A stretch of DNA of 64,000 nt from Hippasteria phrygiana (lineage: Eukaryota; Echinodermata; Asteroidea; Valvatida; Goniasteridae): the NCBI GenBank assembly GCA_037893225.1, contig JAZGUH010000141.1, forward strand, positions 744,001-808,000, written 5' to 3'. This document shows positions 9,164 through 55,632 of this stretch, one piece after another. The notes beneath the pieces are model-generated. The model saw only the letters and a list, made by a program, of their open reading frames with translations. It was not told the origin of the DNA and made no database searches. Both the position numbers and the translations under genes were made by a program. The stretch's first letter is position 1. Every line of letters begins with the position of its first letter.

Positions 9164-9366
9164 GTAGTTGGGTCATCTCCAGAAATTCCGTGACCGTGGA
9201 GAGCGAAGGTTTGTTTCTCAGCGGATTTGTCTTCTATGAAGGTAACATTTTAGCCGGGGTGTCCCTCCCAAAAGTGTGGGCTAACTCCGGGAGGGGGGTA
9301 AATAGATTAATACAGGGGTCAAAACTGAAAAATGCTTCGATTGCTGTAAAAAGCAAAGCAAACTAT
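9164..9366 (+). repeat. Left terminal inverted repeat of element Z
   Basis: Runs from about AGTTGGGTCATCTCCAG to GTAAAAAGCAAAGCAAAC and pairs with 15484-15686. An open frame across it (9016-9399) is coincidental: its translation has no known domain, and the inverted copy does not preserve the frame. Confidence 0.8.
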
Positions 9367-9857
9367 CCGTCTAATCATAAAGATTTAAAGAAGGTATAGT
9401 TTCTACTATCTACGACTTATGGTTACGGAGATATGAGATAAAATGTATCAAATGTCAAAGGTCAACAGAAAAGGTCAAACCTCTTTAAAATGCTCCGATT
9501 TCTTTGCGAATAGGCTCAAATTGTTCATCTGGTCACATTGTACTGCCTACCAAGTTTCCTTCACTTTATTAATTGACTCAAAAATCAAAGGTCAATAGAG
9601 TTCAATGGTAATGACCTTGTTTTCCCCCTATCTCGGTATCCGGATATAATAGATGGTGCAAACTATTGTTGCTTTAATCCTGTGACTAAATGAAAAATTT
9701 GAGCCTATTTGCAAAGAAATCGGAGCATTTTAAAGAGGTTTGACCTTTTCTGGTGACCTTTGACATTTGATACATTTTATCTCACATCTCCGTAACCATA
9801 AGTCGTAGATAGTAGAAACTATACCTTTTTTAAATCCTTATGATTAGACGGATAATT
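9361..9857. repeat. Large hairpin inside element Z (arms ~165 bp)
   Basis: 9361-9528 (AACTATCCGTCTAATCATAA ... GAATAGGCTCAAA) is the near-perfect reverse complement of 9692-9857 (TTTGAGCCTATTTGCAAAG ... CTAATTATCC region). A ~160-bp loop separates the arms. Landmarks present on both arms are TAGTTTCTACTATCTACGAC, GATACATTTTATCTCA, AAAGGTCAAACCTCTTTAAA and ATGCTCCGATTTCTTTGC. It may be a separate foldback element nested in Z. Confidence 0.85.
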
Positions 9858-10013
9858 GGCTGTTTTGGAAACTTTTCCAAAACAGCCCTTGTTTTCGTTA
9901 AGATTTTTTTTTTTTTCTTTTTTTTTGGCTGTTTCGGAAACTTTTCCGAAACAGCCCTTGTTTTCGTTAAGATTTTTTTTTTTTGCTGTTTTGGAAACTT
10001 TTCCAAAACAGCC
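9858..10013. repeat. Three tandem perfect palindromes (GGCTGTTTTGGAAA stems)
   Basis: Three units of a 14-bp stem hairpin (GGCTGTTTTGGAAA, then CT, then the exact complement) lie at 9858-9887, 9927-9956 and 9985-10013. Each is followed by CTTGTTTTCGTTAAGA and a T run. The middle unit has GGCTGTTTCGGAAA on the left and the matching TTTCCGAAACAGCC on the right, so one T-A pair is replaced by a C-G pair on both sides and the palindrome stays perfect. The third unit lacks the outermost G. Confidence 0.93.
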
Positions 10014-10024
10014 CTTGTTTTCGT

Positions 10025-10030
<6 letters not shown>

Positions 10031-10067
<37 letters not shown>
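10031..10067 (+). repeat. Poly-T tract
   Basis: About 37 consecutive T separate the short palindromes from the CRE array. Similar but shorter T runs precede later modules at about 12791 and 14335, so a T run appears to mark module starts. Confidence 0.9.
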
Positions 10068-13000
10068 CCTTTTCAGACTTTTTCCCATAGCATTTGTACA
10101 CGTTTTCTTTCTTACCGGCACTTTGGCTACTTTTATGTTACCGATTGACTTCAAACTTGGCAGACACTTAGACTAACTGCTCAGAATGTATGCCGAACAT
10201 TTACGTCATGATGACGTCATCACGTGATTTTTTATGAATTTTTGAAATTTTAAAATCGTAATATTCTTTTTAATATATCTAGCGAACAAAACAAGATATT
10301 TTCAAAATTCTTTTTGTTATAGCTTTGGTATGTCTCAAAGATATGCACTAAAAAAAAAAAAAATGTGTGATGTCATGATGATGTCATCAAAAATGTGCTT
10401 TTTTAAAACACATATAAGGATAGGTCCGATCGTCATGAAAATTGGTGGGTAGGTAGATACTGGCACTAGGATGCAAAATCCAAAATGACGTCATGATGAC
10501 GTCATCACGTGATTTGTTATGAATTTTTGAAATTTTGAAAATCGTAACATTCTTTTAAATATATCTGGCAAACAAAACAAGATATTTTCAAAATTCTTTT
10601 TGTTATAGCTTTGGTAGGTCTCAAAGATATGCCCTAAAAAGGAAAAAAATGTGTGACGTCATGATGACATCATCAAAAATGTGCTTTTTTAAAACACATA
10701 TAAGGATAGGTCCGATCGTCATGAAAATTGGTGGGTAGGTAGATACTGGCACTAGGATGCCAAATCCAAAGTGACGTCATGATGACGTCATCACGTGATT
10801 TGTTATGAATTTTTGAAATTTTGAAATCGTAACATTCTTTTAAATATATCTCGCAAACAAAACAAGATATTTTCAAAATTCTTTTTGATACAGCTTTTGG
10901 TATGTCTCAAAGATATGCCCTAAAAGGCGAAAATTGTGTGACGTCATAATGACGTCATCAATTTTGTTTTTACGCATGTAAGGGTCGGTCCGATTAAAAA
11001 AATGTATACATTGAATTTTTCTCTACCTAATTCAACAATTTCGTGATCGTGGCTCACTCAAGTATTAAGAAATAACAGGCATCTGAAAATTGTGACCAAA
11101 TTCAATATAACACAAAGGAATTCTGGGAAGGACAGAAACCATGGCTTTCATGTGGCATGCTGTCTATAAAGAGTTGATCTCTAGTCTTTTTTTCAAGTCG
11201 TTAGACAAGTCGTAGGCAGACACTTACACCAACTGCTCAGAATGTGCGCCGAACTTTTACGTCATGATGACGTCATCACATGTCACGTGACGTCATCTTA
11301 AAGGGGCATTTTTCAGACTTTTTCCCATAGTATTTGTGCACGTTTTCTTTCTTACCGGCACTTTGGCTACTTTGGTGCACCCGATTGCCTTTAAACTTGG
11401 CAGACACTTAGACAAACTGCTCAGAATGTGTGCCGAACTTTTTGGTCATGATGACGTCATCACGTGATTTTTTATGAATTTTTGAAATTTTAAAATCGTA
11501 AAATTCTTTTCAATATATCTAGCGAACAAAACAAGATATTTTCAAAATTCTTTTTGTTACAGCTTTGGTAGGTCTCAAAGATATGCCCTAAAAAGGAAAA
11601 AAATGTGTGACGTCATGATGACATCATCAAAAATGTCCTTTTTTAAAACACATATAAGGATAGGTCCGATCGTCATGAAAATTGGTGGGTAGGTAGATAC
11701 TGCCACCAGCATGCAGAAGCCGAAGTGACGTCATGATGACGTCATCACGTGATTTTTTATGAATTTTTGAAATTTTGAAATCGTAAAAGTCTTTTAAATA
11801 TATCTGGCAAACAAAACAAGATATTTTCAAAATTATTTTTGTTATAGCTTTGGTAGGTCTCAAAGATATGCCCTAAAAAGGAAAAAAATGTGTGACGTCA
11901 TGATGACATCATCAAAAATGTGCTTTTTTAAAACACATATAAGGATAGGTCCGATCGTCATGAAAATTGGTGGGTAGGTAGATACTGGTACTAGGATGCC
12001 AAATCCAAAGTGACGTCATGATGACGTCATCACGTGATTTGTTATGAATTTTTGAAATTTTGAAATCGTAACATTCTTTTAAATATATCTCGCAAACAAA
12101 ACAAGAGATTTTCAAAATTCTTTTTGATACAGCTTTTGGTATGTCTCAAAGATATGCCCTAAAAGGCGAAAATTGTGTGACGTCATAATGACGTCATCAA
12201 TTTTTTTTTTTAACGCATGTAAGGGTCGGTCCGATTAAAAATTTATACATTGAATTTTTCTCTACCTAATTCAACAATTTCGTGATCGTGGCTCACTCAA
12301 GTATTAAGAAATAACAGGCATCTAAAAAATTGTGACCAAATTCAATATAACACAAAGGAATTCTGGGAAGGACAGAAACCATGGCTTTCATGTGGCATGC
12401 TGTCTATAAAGAGTTGATCTCTAGTCTTTTTTTCAAGTCGTTAGACAAGTCGTAGGCAGATACTTACACCAACTGCTCAGAATGTGCGCCGAACTTTTAG
12501 GTCATGATGACGTCATCACATGTCACGTGACGTCATCTTAAAGGGGCATTTTTGGAAACCATATATCTACAAAAGTACAAGTCACATTAAGTTAAAACGT
12601 GGTATTTAGTTATGCCAGCATGTGTTAGATGAAAATGTATGTGACGTCATGGTGACGTCATGATGACGTCATCGGCTAATTTTCTATGATTTTTTTCATT
12701 TTTGAAATTTCATTTAAATCACATAATTTTACACAAAAAAACAAAACAGCCCTGTGTTTGTCCACAAACACTGCACCAGATGTCTAGTTTCTTTTTTTTT
12801 TTCTTCTTTTTCAGCCAAATGCCCATTGCATTTGTACACGTTTTCTTTCTTACTGGCACTTTGGCTACTTTTATGGTGCCGATTGGCTTTAAACTTGGCA
12901 GGCACTTAGACCAACTGCTCAGAATGTATGCCGAACATTTACGTCATGATGACGTCATCACGTGATTTTTTATGAATTTTTGAAATTTCAAAATCGTAAA

Positions 13001-15440
13001 ATTCTGTTCAATATATCTAGCGAACAAAACAAGATATTTTCAAAATTCTTTTTGTTATAGCTTTGGTATGTCTCAAAGATATGCCCTGAAAGGGAGAAAA
13101 TGTGTGACGTCATGATGACATCATCAAAAATGTGCTTTTTTAAAACACATATAAGGATAGGTCCGATCGTCATGAAAATTGGTGGGTAGGTAGATACTGT
13201 CACTAGGATGCTGAATCCAAAGTGACGTCATGATGACGTCATCACATGATTTTTTATGATTTTTTCAAAATTTTAAAATCGTAACATTCTTTTCAATATA
13301 TCTAGCAAACAGAACAAGATATTTTCAAAATTATTTTTGTTATAGCTTTGGTATGTCTCAAAGATATGCCCTGAAAGGGAGAAAATGTGTGACGTCATGA
13401 TGACATCATCAAAAATGTGCTTTTTTAAAACACATATAAGGATATGTCCGATCGTCATGAAAATTGGTGGGTAGGTAGATAGTGCCACTAGCATGTAAAA
13501 TCCAAAGTGACGTCATGATGACGTCATCAGCTGATTTTCTATGACTTTTTAGTTTTATCCCAAATCCCATAGACTTTGTACACGAATTTTGTAAGAGCCA
13601 CTTTGGTCACTAAACAACCTCAGATCTTAATCAGGTTTAACTCAAACAGAGACCCTAAGCTAAGAATGTATGCCGAAGAGTGACGTCATGATGACGTCAT
13701 CACTTGTCATGTGACGTCATCTTAAAGGTGCATTTTTCAAGGGCACATATCTAGAGAACCGTAGGTCCGATTGCATTCAAACCTGCTATGGTGGTAGACA
13801 AGTACGTGTTATAGATGAAAATTGAGGTGACGTCATCATGACGTCATCATGACGTCATCATACGATTTTATAGTAATTTTTAAGTTTTTTAACCTTAAAG
13901 TTTCTTAAACCCATATCTCATCACCAGAACATGCTAAATTCAAAATTTTTTTTGTAATAGCTTTGTTAGCTTCTATATTCTTTCACATAAATGAGAAAAT
14001 GTGTGACGTCATCATGACGACATCAAAAATATATTTAAAAAAAAACACATATAAGGGTAGGTCCAATCGTCATAAAAATTGGTGGGTATGTAGATAGTGT
14101 GCCACAAGCATGCGGCAGCCGAAGTGACGTCATGATGACGTCATCGGCAAATTTTCTATGATTTTTTTTATTTTGTAAATTTTATGTTCCTCCCAACAAC
14201 AACATCCTAACCCCTCCGTCTTTAACTAACAAACACCTTTTACTATTATAAGCATATTACACATCCAAAATAACAAAACAACCCCGAAACAGCCCTGTGT
14301 TTGTCATAACGTGACAAACACATAGCATGTCTATTTTTTTTTTTTTTTTTTTTTTTTTCTTCTTTTTCAGCCAAATGCCCATAGCATTTGTACACGTTTT
14401 CTTTCTTACCGGCACTTTGGCTACTTTTATGTTACCGATTGACTTCAAACTTGGCAGACACTTAGACTAACTGCTCAGAATGTATGCCGAACATTTTCGT
14501 CATGATGACGTCATCACGTGATTTTTTATGAATTTTTGAAATTTCAAAATCGTAAAATTCTTTTCAATATATCTAGCGAACAAAACAAGATATTTTCAAA
14601 ATTCTTTTTGTTATAGCTTTGGTATGTCTCAAAGATATGCACTAAAAGAAAAAAAAATGTGTGATGTCATGATGACGTCATCAAAAATGTGCTTTTTTAA
14701 AACACATATAAGGATAGGTCCGATCGTCATGAAAATTGGTGGGTAGGTAGATACTGGCACTAGGATGCAAAATCCAAAATGACGTCATGATGACGTCATC
14801 ACGTGATTTGTTATGAATTTTTGAAATTTTGAAAATCGTAACATTCTTTTCAATATATCTGGCAAACAAAACAAGATATTTTCAAAATTCTTTTTGTTAT
14901 AGCTTTGGTAGGTCTCAAAGATATGCCCTAAAAAGGAAAAAAATGTGTGACGTCATGATGACATCATCAAAAATGTGCTTTTTTAAAACACATATAAGGA
15001 TAGGTCCGATCGTCATGAAAATTGGTGGGTAGGTAGATACTGCCACCAGCATGCAGAAGCCGAAGTGACGTCATGATGACGTCATCACGTGATTTTTTAT
15101 GAATTTTTGAAATTTTGAAATCGTAAAATTCTTTTAAATATATCTCGCAAACAAAACAAGATATTTTCAAAATTCTTTTTGTTATAGCTTTGGTAGGTCT
15201 CAAAGATATGCCCTAAAAAGGAAAAAAATGTGTGACGTCATGATGACATCAAAAATGTGCTGTTTTAAAACACATATAAGGATAGGTCCAATCGTCATGA
15301 AAATTGGTGGGTAGGTAGATACTGTCACTAGCATGCAAAATCTGAAATGATGTCATGATGACGTCTTCGGCAATTTTTTTTATGATTTTTGAAATTTTTG
15401 AAATTTCATTTTAATCACAAAATTTTACACAAAAAAACAA
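10068..15440. repeat. Satellite-like array of ~284-bp units rich in TGACGTCA
   Basis: The core ATGACGTCATGATGACGTCA TCACGTGATTT recurs near 10203, 10486, 10773, then 11448, 11727, 12010, then 12942, 13223, 13510, then 14500, 14782, 15068 and 15350, with spacing about 280-287 bp within runs. Each unit also has GATATTTTCAAAATTCTTTT TGTTATAGCTTTGG, CTCAAAGATATGCCCT, and ACACATATAAGGATAGGTCC GATCGTCATG. Modules start with TTTTTCAG...CCCATAGCATTTGTACACG near 10068, 11306, 12806 and 14360. The block 10931-11300 is repeated at 12171-12545 (offset about 1240 bp), which shows higher-order duplication. TGACGTCA (the CRE consensus) occurs more than 40 times, often beside CACGTG. Confidence 0.93.
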
Positions 15441-15483
15441 AACAGCCCTGTGTTTGTCCACAAACACTGTACCATATGTCTAG

Positions 15484-15686
15484 TTTGGTTTGCTTTTTAC
15501 AGCAATTTAAACATTTTTCAGTTTTGACCCCTGTGTTATGGATTTACCCGCTCCCGGAGTTAGCCCACACTTTTGGGAGGGACACCCCTGCTAAAATTTT
15601 AATTTAACCTTCATAGAAGACAAATCCACTGAGAAACGAACCTTCGCTCTCCACGGTCACGGAATTACTGGAGATGACCAAACTAA
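15484..15686 (-). repeat. Right terminal inverted repeat of element Z
   Basis: Inverted counterpart of 9164-9366, running from GTTTGGTTTGCTTTTTACAG C to GGAGATGACCAAACTAAA. Just inside it, ACAAAACAGCCCTGTGTTTG with CCACAAACAC repeats a motif also found at about 12740 and 14285. Confidence 0.8.
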
Positions 15687-16953: not shown

Positions 16954-17105
16954 CAATGGGAGTCTCTTGAGACGCTGGTGGCAGCAGACGTACCGTCCTT
17001 TCCATTCTTCTCACCAGTCGTGCGCATGCTCAGACCTACGCGCGCATGCTCAGAACTAGCAAAAAAGACCGGTATGTCTGCTGCCACCAACGTCTCAAAA
17101 CGGTA
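16954..17105. mobile_element. MITE B, copy 1 (GAGACGCTGGTGGCAGCAGAC termini)
   Basis: The left end CAATGGGAGTCTCTTGAGAC GCTGGTGGCAGCAG and the right end CTGCTGCCACCAACGTCTCA are inverted repeats. The centre holds palindromic GCGCATGC words with CAGAACTA. Copies lie at 44059-44294 and 54975-55133. Confidence 0.85.
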
Positions 17106-21179: not shown

Positions 21180-21540
21180 ATATGATTTCTGCGCAGATTC
21201 CTGCGATGTCGTACATTTTATTGCAGATTTCTGCGCAGATTTCTGCGATGTCGTACATTTTATCGCACATTTTATCGCAGATTTTTTACAGATTTTTGCG
21301 ATGTCGTACATTTTATCGCACATTTTTTCGCAGATTTCTGCTCAGAAATTTGCAATGTCGTACATTTTATCGCACATTTATTTGCAGATTTCGGCCGTGG
21401 ATTCAGCCATTGATTCAGCCGCAGATTTACAATCTCAAACGCATCAAATAAAAGGTGGTCAACAAAGTGTGCTTTTTATACAAGTTTTTGGGGGTTTAAT
21501 CAACAAAATGTTTAAGGTTTTAGCAAAATTACACGTTATA
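21180..21540 (+). repeat. Minisatellite arm T, left (GCGATGTCGTACATTTTATC unit)
   Basis: Roughly 50-bp imperfect repeats built from CAGATTTCTGCGATGTCGTA CATTTTATCGCA occupy 21180-21400. They are followed by a unique tail (GATTTCGGCCGTGGATTCAG, CAAACGCATCAAATAAAAGG TGGTCAACAAAGTGTGC, CAAAATTACACGTTATA). The whole segment returns in inverted orientation at 23853-24150. Open frames across it have no known domain. Confidence 0.88.
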
Positions 21541-23852: not shown

Positions 23853-24150
23853 AAACGTGTAATTTTGCTAAAACCTCAAACATTTTGTTGATGGAACCAT
23901 GGAGGTAGGAACCCCCAAAAAGCACACTTTGTTGACCATCTTTTACTTGATGCGTTTGAGATTCTGAGTCTGCGGCTGACTCCACGGCCGAAATCTGCAA
24001 AGAAATATGCGATAAAAGTGCGAAATCGCAAATATCTGCGCAGAAATCTGCAATAAAATGTGCGATAAAATGTACGACATCGCAGAAATCTGTGCAGAAA
24101 TATGCAATAAAATGTACGGCATCGCAGAAATCTGCGCAGAAATGTGCATG
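23853..24150 (-). repeat. Minisatellite arm T, right (inverted)
   Basis: The reverse complement of the arm at 21180-21540: ACGTGTAATTTTGCTAAAAC C, GACCATCTTTTACTTGATGC GTTTGAGATT, then several GCGATAAAATGTACGACATC GCAGAAATCTG units. It begins directly after the TTAA of element A copy 2. Confidence 0.88.
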
Positions 24151-24477: not shown

Positions 24478-24537
24478 CCCAACCCTAACACCAACCCTAA
24501 CCCTATTTCTCACCCTAATCCTCACCCTAACCCTTAC
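24478..24537 (-). repeat. Degenerate telomere-like repeats (CCCTAA-type)
   Basis: CCCAACCCTAACACCAACCC TAACCC, then CACCCTAATCCTCACCCTAA CCC: about eight imperfect CCCTAA/CCCTCA units, the complement of the TTAGGG animal telomere repeat. This is interstitial and degraded, with no chromosome end here. Confidence 0.75.
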
Positions 24538-25832
24538 CCCATGCATGTTTCTCATAGTTTTGGTGTACGGGGCCTACTGATCATGCGCAGTACATCCAAC
24601 AAGTCGGATATTCAGAGAGTCTGATATTCACGGACACCTACCTTTAATACTAGTTAGCATAAACCCGGGGAGTTTACGCTAATCCTAGTGTACGCTAATT
24701 AGGATCTTTATAATGACCCATAACACGTTGCGTTGTTTCCAACCACTGAACAAACAAATTACCATAACAGATCTTTGTTGATTAAAATAAATTTCTCAGT
24801 GATTCAGAATCATTAAAGATAGGCCTAATGAAAACAACATTCAACTGTTAAAAATGGCAAACAGCGCTTGCGCACACGATGTCCAATAAAAAGCGCCATA
24901 AGCTACCGATCCCCAAATTTTGGGCGAGAACCAGTCTATGTTGGAATGTACATATAAATTAAATTAGATGATTATGTTGGTACCCTAACTCATTTTTATC
25001 TACATATCCCGGTCCACGACATTGACATTTACAAGCCATATTTTCGCAAATCATTTAGCCATATTAAATCGTTTTTTTCACTGTCGTTACATTGCACCCT
25101 TACAATACCCAAATAATTATGTTTATCATGTATGTCAAACGTGCAGCCTTTATTCAGCTTTGATACATCCTGTACACGTAAGCCAACAATAACACACACC
25201 GTCTGTCAATGCTATATTTCACAGGAACAGAATATGCATATCTGTACACAGCGGCGGGTCCTGCATAGGCCTACAGTGAATTAGTCCCCCTGCTTTGCAG
25301 TACAAAACGCTAAAATTAATTACCGAGCGAAAGTGCTGGATAATGAACACGTCCAATTTCCTTCTTTTTCAATACTGAATTTTTAAGTGTTCCAGCACCA
25401 ATGAACTGCTAAACCCCATCATGCCTGATTGACAAGGATGGAATATAATAATTCAATGCCTTGGAAATGATTGATTTCAGTATACAGAGATAAAGAGATT
25501 CAGGCACAAATACTGGCAGTTGCTGTGATATAAAATCCTTCTAGCGTGGGTTAATCATCAAACCTCGAAGACGTTCACGGGACAATGTGAATGCTGCAGC
25601 GTGTATCTCCTGAGGCTATACTGCGCAGCGATAGGGATGTAATGCGCTACATTCTATTGAAGCAAAACTGTCACCACGTATCCGGACTGCTAGTTCTGCA
25701 TCTCATCACCGGCGCTATTGCAACATCACTCGGCGGGCTGTGAAAATGTGAGCACTGACGCACGCTAAACGCTTTGCAAAATTCGGGGCGACTGAGGTAT
25801 ATTTGTTAGATTGTTAGACAAGGACCACGTAC

Positions 25833-29339: not shown

Positions 29340-30935
29340 CTTACCGATTATAAAGATGATACCATATCAGTTCTCCTGAGAAATCTTCCGTCTGTAGTTC
29401 CGCCATCTACGGGAAAATTGTATCTGAAGATCTTCCAAATCGCCGTGGCTCGTTTCGATTTCAACAATCGAAATGAACACATATATAGGCCTACGAACGT
29501 GCAAAAAATCGCTGTTAAAACAAAACGAATTTTCACTGTTTACTTCTTCTTCTTGCGTATGCTAAAATGTATAGGTCGATACATTTCTCAAGCCAGTTAA
29601 CAGATTGAGAATCCAACAGCTGCAAACCAATGGCGCCGTGAGGTGGACGGTGTCTCAGGCAATGATCCAATAAGTGAGTGAGAGTCTGCTATCCGATGCC
29701 GCAGTCACAATAAGGGTCATCCACCATTCCCCATTTGAACAGGTTAGATCTCCATCTACCGACACCACTACGGATCCTATTGAGCTTGGTCCAGCTGCCT
29801 CTGGGGAGGTTGCTGCCTCCAACATGCTTGCTAGGCTCAGGGATGAACTGATGGAGGCTGGTGCCGAGTTGTTTCCATTCCTCCTGCCATCTCCTCATGG
29901 CAAATTCCTGGTGGGTCTCATTGGGTAGAGCCTTGTTTAGGATGTCTGCATGTGCCCTGAAGGGGTTTCTGGACACAAGGCGCTGAGGTTTGATGACTGT
30001 TTCGCCTTCATCATTACGTAACACATGGTGCAAGAGGTGCCCAGGGTTGTTGACAGCACGTCGAGCAAGTAAGACGGTGGACGCTTCTCTGCGAATATAG
30101 GGAGGCTGAATTCCACTGAGTACTGGCAGGCATTCAGTAGGTGTGGGTAGGAGACAGCCACTGACTGTACGGAGGGCAGAGTTGATGGCAGTGTCAACAT
30201 GGTGAGTGTGGGCACTTCTGGTCCAGACTGGAGCACAGTACTCTGCAGGAGCAATAACTAAGGTAGTTGTAGATATCCTAAGACTGTTGGGACTGGCGCC
30301 CCAGCCTGTGCCAGCGAGTCTTCTGATAAGGCTGCCTCCAGCTGTCACTTTTTCCATCAAGTTAATGAGATGAGGCCGGAAAGTCAGAGTCCTATCAAGT
30401 TTGACACCAAGATAGATTGGAGTGGCATCAAATGGGAGAGTGCTGTTGTTGACTTTGACCTTCAGCTCCCGATTTGCCTCCTTGTTGTTGAGGTTGAAGG
30501 CAGAAGTGACTGTTTACTAAATGACGCGGATGACGGATTGAGCTAAAACTTTTACAGGTTTATCTGTGTATATGTTGAATTACACAAAGTATGGACACGT
30601 ACTGCCCGAAATTGTGTTGTCAGCTCAACCAATGCTATTATCATATCTATAAAGTATGATTTGTGCTAAATAGACTCGAACTATATGGATCGAACTGAAT
30701 GATAAAAGCTTAGCGCCAGTATACTGAGTTCCAGATCACTGTAGGGGCAAGTCTGGCTCTAACACTGTAGAAGTATACACTCATCGTGCATGTGAATTGG
30801 CCATACTGAAGTGCATGATGTGTGGCAAGTTTGATGTGGTGATACTCAACATGTACTAAGCACTTTATCATAGGCACTAGTAAGAAGTGATTTACCAATC
30901 CCAAGGTACATGAGGTACATTACCATGACTGATAC
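29340..30935 (+). repeat. Dispersed repeat P, copy 1, split by a LINE
   Basis: 29340-29544 and 30519-30935 align in order with 48238-48720. Shared landmarks are TATAAAGATGATACCATATC, TGAGAAA, GAAAATTGTATCT, GTGGCT.GTTT, AATTTTCACTGTTTACT, GGATTGAGCTAAAACTTTTA CAGG, TTGTCAGCTCAACCAATGCT and, more distantly, TGAGGTACATT. The LINE at 29545-30508 interrupts the copy. The family is unknown. Confidence 0.75.
29545..30508 (-). mobile_element. 5'-truncated non-LTR retrotransposon (LINE), with target-site duplication
   Basis: The minus strand encodes the end of a LINE reverse-transcriptase protein downstream of the catalytic core: AFNLNNKEANRELKV, PIYLGVKLDRTLTFRPHL, RRLAGTGWGAS, APAEYCAPVWTRSAHTHHVD, LLPTPTECLPVLSGIQPP, RGSWTKLNRIRSGVGRWRSN, KWGMVDDPYCDCG, ending in an Arg-rich AYARRR tail. 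An in-frame TAG (about 29686-29688) interrupts the frame after DCGIG, so the copy is dead. The polymerase and endonuclease domains are missing through 5' truncation. The 3' end is an AAGAAGAAGAAG tail rather than poly-A. The sequence ACTGTTTACT flanks both sides (29535-29544 and 30509-30518), marking a 10-bp target-site duplication. Confidence 0.9.
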
Positions 30936-44058: not shown

Positions 44059-44294
44059 GGAGACTTATGAGACGGGTGGTGCCTGCAGACACACCGGTCC
44101 TTTTCCATTGTTCTCACCAGTGGTGCGCATGCTCAGAACTAAGCACGCATGTTCAGAACTAAGCACACATGCTAAGAACTAAGCACGCATGCACAGAACT
44201 ACGCGCATGCTCAGAACTACGCGCGCATGCTCAAATCTAGCCAAAAGGACCGGTATGTCTCCTACCACTATATCATCTCAAAAGTCTCCCATTA
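44059..44294. mobile_element. MITE B, copy 2, with internal tandem repeat
   Basis: The left end GGAGACTTATGAGACGGGTG GTGCCTGCAGAC and the right end GACCGGTATGTCTCCTACCA C...AAAAGTCTCCCATT are diverged inverted repeats of family B. The centre (about 44125-44235) has six tandem 15-18 bp units of the form GCGCATGCTCAGAACTA, where copies 1 and 3 have one or two. Confidence 0.82.
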
Positions 44295-54860: not shown

Positions 54861-54974
54861 TCAACAACAATTTTTCCCGACTGATATCGGCCGATTATAT
54901 TTCCATAATCTGTGAATTTAAAGTTTTTATTGGTTCAGTTTCTTGCTTTTTGAAACACAAGCAAAAACCCTTCC

Positions 54975-55133
54975 CAATGGGAGACTTTTGAGACGCTGGT
55001 GGCAGCAGACATACCGGTCCTTTTTTCTAGTTCTGAGCGCGCGCGTAGTTCTGAGCATGCGCACGACTGGTGAGAACAACGAAAAAGGACCGCTTACTCT
55101 GCTGCCACCAGCGTCTCAAAAATCTTTCATTGG
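54975..55133. mobile_element. MITE B, copy 3
   Basis: CAATGGGAGACTTTTGAGAC GCTGGTGGCAGCAG at the left pairs with CTGCTGCCACCAGCGTCTCA AAAATCTTTCATTG at the right. The centre has TAGTTCTGAGCATGCGCACG and GCGCGCGTAGTTCTGAG, the reverse orientation of the unit expanded in copy 2. Confidence 0.88.
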
Positions 55134-55632
55134 TAATTAATTTAGTGTTTATAGAAAATTAGGAAATAAAGAGGATGTCAGAAAAAGGACTGTTGGTTTA
55201 TTTATTTTGTTTTTAAACCAGCATCAAATTAAAATGAACCTAGAGCACCCTGCATTCTCACTCAAATTTTTAAATCAGACGCACGAATTAACCGTTACAT
55301 AAGTTTGGCTGGAGCGAAGCACATAGCCCGATATAACCATGTCTTAAAATAGCAATTCTTCAACGATTTATACACAGACGTCGTAATGGAAGACCACGAG
55401 CTCGTACCAGGAGCTTTTTGTCGGCTTAAAGGATTATCATAAACCATTTTAAGGCAGATCAGATACTTTCAAATAAAAAGTTAAATGTTTATATTTTATG
55501 TTTTATAGTACCGCTGTCACCGTGTTCATCTTTACATTGAACAATGATATAAATATTACATTAGAGCCGCAGATAGAGTTTCATGGTATAATGGAAGTCT
55601 GCAGTCTTTAAAATTGAAAGTTCACCTCGATT

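Follow-up and report, generated by a model that had tools for sequence, protein, structure and literature searches.

A probable nested stack of HINE-type elements with paired cAMP-response-element repeats near a CA8-like gene of the sea star Hippasteria phrygiana

Closest described systems

HINEs, which are non-autonomous Helentrons, share a set of structural hallmarks in the two accounts drawn on here: a 5' subTIR, a complementary inverted repeat (IR) and a microsatellite on the left, and an inverted subTIR and a palindrome on the right (PMC7492417, PMC4067079). The same accounts describe repeats between the ends and insertion into T-rich sequence (PMC7492417, PMC4067079). In the description of mite HINEs, the inverted subTIR lies about 38-60 bp from the 3' end (PMC4067079), and in that of oyster HINEs, the microsatellites have units of 3-8 nt (PMC7492417).

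Tandem repeats are also carried by other mobile elements. The bivalve Pearl elements CvA and DTC84 hold short arrays, and a conserved palindrome near the repeat junctions is described for DTC84 (PMC5139131); the record given there of palindromes at satellite junctions is for one mollusc satellite and is not a general rule (PMC5139131). In Tetris and the Xenopus miDNA4 MITE, as described in PMC9659126, inverted arms flank the tandem repeats.

Here, we describe a 6.5-kb block at positions 9164-15686 of a window of 64,000 nucleotides, by which we mean the whole stretch analyzed (assembly GCA_037893225.1, contig JAZGUH010000141.1, positions 744,001 to 808,000, forward strand); all coordinates below are those of the window. 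The block looks like a stack of non-coding mobile elements nested one within another, and to judge from the sequence, the principal elements look like a kind already known, namely HINE-type non-autonomous Helentrons with central repeats. Like Cg_HINE of the oyster, HINE-Mo of the mite, and DINE-1, they have a subTIR with its IR, T-rich surroundings, a 3' inverted subTIR with a palindrome, satellite-like central repeats, and no coding capacity that could be seen, the likeness being to descriptions of structure and not to sequence. Unlike those three, they have a T-run in place of a microsatellite of 3-8-nt units and a CTAG-like 3' end, their repeats are built on paired blocks of the cAMP-response element (CRE), and they have apparently inserted into themselves to a depth of three. 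The likeness to Pearl elements, again by description, lies in the short arrays within a mobile element, whereas the palindrome here is a CRE pair that recurs in half-units. Tetris and miDNA4 are matched in the inverted arms on either side of tandem repeats; unlike theirs, the arms here adjoin separate HINE-like end modules and so look like those of an invaded host element.

A satellite built on paired CRE words

The CRE word TGACGTCA occurs exactly 58 times in the window, and 48 of these copies are inside the element, between its arms; 100 dinucleotide shuffles of the window gave a mean of 0.91 and a maximum of 6. The more than 40 CRE palindromes reported in the first-pass annotation are thus present, as is its array of ~284-bp units, for which TRF returned arrays with a period of 285-286 bp. 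Each unit consists of two half-units, and the spacing of CRE clusters is mostly 118 bp alternating with 156-168 bp, the gaps being longer or irregular at points where other modules lie in between. The element also contains 12 copies of CACGTG.

There are 31 paired-CRE half-unit sites between 10201 and 15366 on the plus strand, with a core of the TGACGTCATGATGACGTCATC type and an 11-bp offset; they are the 33 word clusters found with at most one mismatch, less those at 10146 and 14440, which are single TGACTTCA words in heads. The pairing of palindromes within units noted earlier is borne out by a scan for words 11 bp apart (at most two mismatches in each), which found 32 pairs in 30 of the 31 sites, two sites holding three words. 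The scan missed the site at 11441, where the first word has three mismatches. The one paired-CRE core that was tested is an inverted repeat with a 9-bp stem and a 3-nt loop on one strand, and none of 200 shuffles was as good.

Collections were also searched for these sequences. Exact-pattern scans of a viral contig collection, from which the genome of the window and its near relatives may be absent, gave no stretch for any of five patterns, and a pattern scan of a genome contig collection gave three single matches, all in bacterial contigs, that we regard as chance. A plasmid collection, where an animal repeat would hardly be expected, gave no match to a 1233-bp piece of the block. Five paired-CRE strings were found in no paper of the literature collection searched, a result that speaks for that search only.

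Modules at the ends of the repeats

The block is heterogeneous. Besides the array, it contains a foldback element at 9366-9852, followed at 9856-10067 by three T-run/hairpin modules, and it has three hairpin ends as well. Stop-to-stop frames of at least 50 aa that overlap the block number 43, the longest being of 135 aa with its start outside the block; by this frame scan alone none is convincing, in keeping with the earlier remark that no coding capacity is visible.

The three T-run/hairpin modules have the features of HINE 5' ends. They start at 9856, 9925 and 9982, and in each, a short middle separates (G/T)GCTGTTTYGG from its complementary sequence, after which comes a T-run. The first (HINE1, 9856-9924, plus strand) has the subTIR GGCTGTTTTGG and an IR forming a 13-bp stem, and the second (HINE2, 9925-9981, plus strand) has the subTIR GGCTGTTTCGG, likewise with a 13-bp stem. 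The third opens HINE3 (9982-12787, plus strand), which runs through a 5' module with a 12-bp stem, a run of 38 T's, a head, 285-bp repeats and a 3' module; in its 5' subTIR, T replaces the first G. Shuffles folded as well as these 12-13-bp stems in 0, 0 and 1 of 200 cases each. HINE3 ends in CTAG at 12784-12787 and contains an internal tandem duplication of ~1240 bp, with 226/228 identities in a 228-bp sample. A stretch of HINE3 at ~10998-11250 holds no CRE words, and the ~1240-bp duplication gives it a second copy at 12237-12490.

The remainders of the other two copies follow on the plus strand. That of HINE2 (12788-14333) comprises a T-run, head, repeats, a 3' subTIR (14284-14294), a palindrome (14297-14321) and the end GTCTA. 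That of HINE1 (14334-15483) has the same succession, with its 3' subTIR at 15437-15447, its palindrome at 15450-15467 and the end CTAG, the final 3 bases of which are also compatible with the right arm. The three 3' modules (12741-12787, 14284-14333 and 15437-15483) each combine an inverted subTIR word with a GTGTTTGT...ACAAACAC palindrome, and all three have an ATGTCTA end. Between copies, identity is 84-96% for heads and 73-93% for 3' modules.

For each 5' module, there is an inverted subTIR near a 3' end that matches exactly over 10, 11 and 9 bp, respectively, matches that were equalled by 3, 0 and 15 of 2000 mononucleotide shuffles; for this comparison, the segment taken for the third 3' module was extended three bases past its placed end. 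The last base of the 3' subTIRs of HINE1 and HINE3 is unlike that of their 5' subTIRs. Set against the published descriptions of HINEs, a 5' subTIR of 11-15 bp with a complementary IR is present in three of three copies, a palindrome 8-35 bp from the 3' end in three of three (here 12-16 nt before it), and central repeats of 285-286 bp lie between. The inverted subTIRs are 36, 39 and 36 bp from the placed 3' ends, two of them just short of the published 38-60 bp. Folding of the 3' modules was clearly better than that of shuffles in one case of three, the other two being equalled by 20 and 44 of 200 shuffles. HINEs go into TT or T-rich DNA and leave no target duplication; here, T-runs hold two of the 3 HINE copies, and the outermost lies beside a few T's.

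Two other kinds of element were considered as the source of these modules. Standard Helitrons begin with 5' TC and end in CTRR, and they were set aside in view of the subTIR/IR structure and the missing TC start. A minus-strand poly(A) retroposon was likewise set aside because it leaves the paired subTIRs unexplained. Outside the block, an isolated look-alike of the HINE 3' module, recognized by sequence resemblance, lies at 1113-1160 on the minus strand and is possibly a remnant of another insertion.

Outer arms and the foldback element beside them

The inverted terminal arms of ~200 bp that were said to enclose the array exist. The left arm (9165-9365, plus strand) has its outer end at TA, and the right arm (15481-15685, minus strand) is its inverted copy; with the latter reversed, 185/199 aligned bases are identical. 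When the outer flanks were compared at lengths of 2-10, they matched only at the 2-bp TA, which is a possible target-site duplication and can equally belong to the arms. Superfamilies whose target duplications are longer, Polintons among them, were dropped as a source of the arms, since the flanks match at TA only. Within the arms, and abutting the inner end of the left one, is the foldback element, here called MITE2 (9366-9852, no strand assigned), which has TA on both sides and arms of 181 nt at 94% identity (168/177 in a second comparison).

We regard it as unlikely that the whole block is a single DNA transposon mobilized by these ~200-bp TIRs, with the CRE satellite as its cargo. The length of the arms, their similarity and the TA at their outer ends agree with such an element, and TIR elements that hold satellites are listed in PMC9659126. 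However, the HINE-type modules start 4 bases past MITE2 and finish at the right arm, and arms, MITE2 and HINE pieces together account for everything but three bases (9853-9855). This leaves no room inside the arms for a TIR transposon, except if the CRE-less stretch of HINE3 hides one. With MITE2 set aside, HINE-type 5' and 3' modules stand at or near the inner edges of the remainder, and for this reason the arms look like those of an earlier palindromic element (MITE1), ending in TA, that was later invaded, as far as can be judged from the sequence of this one locus. The first-pass annotation had taken them as the ends of the array's own transposon, a reading that the modules argue against at this locus. 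Its broader proposal of a mobile satellite is supported: the array does sit in structures bearing the hallmarks of non-autonomous Helentrons, a group known to carry satellite-like central repeats.

Nesting order and insertion history

From left to right, the modules follow one another as three 5' modules, a set of head, body and 3' module, and then two sets of T-run, head, body and 3' module. Both internal 3' ends pass directly into a T-run and head, with no 5' module in between. This succession, three 5' modules and then three head-body-3' sets, is the order expected from serial insertion of each copy into the T-run of the preceding one. The subTIRs point in the same direction: a variant position reads T, C, T across the 5' modules and T, C, T across the 3' modules, which agrees with nested pairing, and the middle pair matches over 11 bases compared with 8 for the middle copy with other partners. 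The variant singles out the middle copy only: copy 1 matches the partner of copy 3 as well as its own, and copy 3 that of copy 1.

We therefore consider it likely that the block is a nested stack of HINEs in an older foldback element, with the paired CRE as the common joint of their central repeats. Anatomy, order and subTIR matches are read directly from the sequence, whereas the insertion history and rolling-circle mobility are what we infer from them, ends and history alike coming from one locus. The history may have run as follows. The starting point would have been MITE1, the earlier palindrome ending in TA, into which MITE2 inserted at a TA. A HINE, that is, a non-coding Helentron for which rolling-circle enzymes would be supplied from elsewhere, would then have landed beside MITE2 in a T-rich site. 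Next, a second HINE would have entered the T-run of this one, and a third that of the second; the central repeats of these HINEs would be the 285-bp CRE units. At the left junction, one base change (G to A) is needed to match the proposed target, the continuation of the arm.

The same three copies might instead have arisen as a serial tandem array, in which rolling-circle replication overran the 3' end signal and no copy was nested in another. Tandem Helitrons formed by bypassed termination are on record in the mite account (PMC4067079), and the T, C, T order of the subTIRs fits serial pairing equally. Such an array predicts repeats of 5' module, body and 3' module in turn, and the grouping of all three 5' modules ahead of the three head-body-3' sets makes this origin very unlikely.

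The paired-CRE core as a meeting point of modules

The CRE words had been thought better preserved than the rest of the unit. Half-units were compared by anchoring, a first MAFFT alignment having scattered the core. Between flank types, identity in the 19-bp core is 0.91, compared with 0.35 upstream and 0.36 downstream (347 pairs), the sites having been selected for their resemblance to CRE, which inflates the core value. Up to 31 separated sites share a core 14-mer, against a 95th percentile of 12 for words classed as non-CRE, an imperfect split in that the top "non-CRE" words (up to 31 sites) fall inside the core. In 8 comparisons of homologous, diverged half-units, the core retained 16-19 of 19 positions, and identity in the upstream flank was 0.64-0.85. 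Six of these comparisons (A-F twice, D-E, H-C, H-C2 and C-C2) gave 18-19/19, and two B-Bx comparisons gave 16/19, which was not significant. The Fisher p value for core versus upstream flank was below 0.025 in five of the eight pairs, and the other three gave 0.056, 0.19 and 0.29; the eight are not independent of one another. Among 8 register-defined 285-bp units (of nine copies, that at 15104 being left out), variable columns numbered 3/38 in CRE and 42/250 elsewhere (p = 0.23). Preferential conservation thus holds between half-unit types, an old divergence, and is not demonstrable among recent copies, the per-column test of register-defined units showing no significant excess.

Most half-unit types have little in common beyond the paired-CRE block, and some share the module of one side only. 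Among the upstream flanks of ten representatives, 10 of 45 pairs aligned with a z of at least 3. For H and C, the upstream sides align (z 7.0) and the downstream sides do not (1.2), whereas D and F align downstream (z 6.3) and not upstream (1.3); A and F share the upstream side strongly (z 14.0) and the downstream side weakly (1.5), and A and H are strong downstream (z 9.4) and weak upstream (3.4). When 50-bp upstream and downstream segments were clustered separately, 9 combinations were obtained across the 31 sites, with downstream class 2 found after three upstream classes and upstream class 5 before two downstream classes; the class threshold was chosen by the analyst with no null, and uneven divergence could mimic module exchange, above all for A and H. 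The one-sided sharing, which is itself a direct observation, and the combinations of classes indicate that the core is the meeting point of different modules.

Why the paired-CRE block persists is most likely explained by its being a node of recombination or template switching, an explanation that we favor over selection for CREB binding because CRE columns are not significantly more conserved among the register-defined units. Repeated recombination or template switching at the block during amplification would preserve it, and the core hairpin would matter in a single-stranded rolling-circle intermediate.

The selective alternative holds that paired CREs are retained for putative binding of CREB/ATF/Jun and for transcription that would benefit the element or host. 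It would account for the six of eight diverged pairs in which the core stays at 18-19/19 beside upstream flanks of 0.64-0.85, and within a cluster, the 11-bp offset of the two main words is close to one helical turn. The register-defined units and the two B-Bx comparisons speak against it, and in 7 of 9 type B sites the second word is TGACATCA, which breaks palindrome and stem, yet these sites have been amplified. Taken together, selection seems improbable as the cause, and the type B word argues equally against a strict requirement for either a hairpin or CREB.

Gene setting and possible significance

On the minus strand to the left of the block, matches to a human CA8 protein lie at 8573-8385 (32/63 identities) and 5509-5315 (31/65). 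The first of these matches contains a Carb_anhydrase domain (Pfam PF00194; E 1.6e-10). The block is therefore near a CA8-like gene, 5' of an exon encoding ~residue 35 onward. The first-pass annotation had placed it in CA8 intron 1, where the satellite might hypothetically seed or titrate CREB sites; the protein identities and Pfam match uphold the gene, and the intron is a plausible placement, as opposed to one upstream of the gene.

It is tempting to view the block as one of a rolling-circle family whose central satellite is a ready-made putative CREB/ATF enhancer array, which would spread dozens of paired CREs through an animal genome with each insertion, enlarge itself via its own T-run, and so assemble super-arrays of mobile CREs next to genes like CA8; from the sequence, we think this quite unlikely.

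If the anatomy holds, the locus would be a readable example of Helentron growth by insertion into the element's own T-run and of a satellite with modules joined at a palindromic transcription-factor word. Two questions could then be tested. One is whether such palindromes persist through a role in recombination or through protein binding; the other is whether mobile elements are a bulk source of dispersed CREB sites.

Elsewhere in the window, a CAG/CTG triplet array of ~80 copies with 97% matches occupies 526-764. A 223-aa frame on the minus strand at 29689-30360, which had no match in a Pfam search, is somewhat reminiscent of the C-terminal region of a LINE reverse-transcriptase polyprotein. 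Two arrays of 42-54-bp units (21185-21477 and 23917-24148), mutually inverted and ~2.5 kb apart, are accompanied by a degenerate AACCCT array at 24481-24539. Related sequences at 17041-17100, 44077-44233 and 54971-55136 are paired as inverted repeats, and the second of these includes an array (44126-44233) whose 20-bp unit is CGCATGCTCAGAACTAAGCA.
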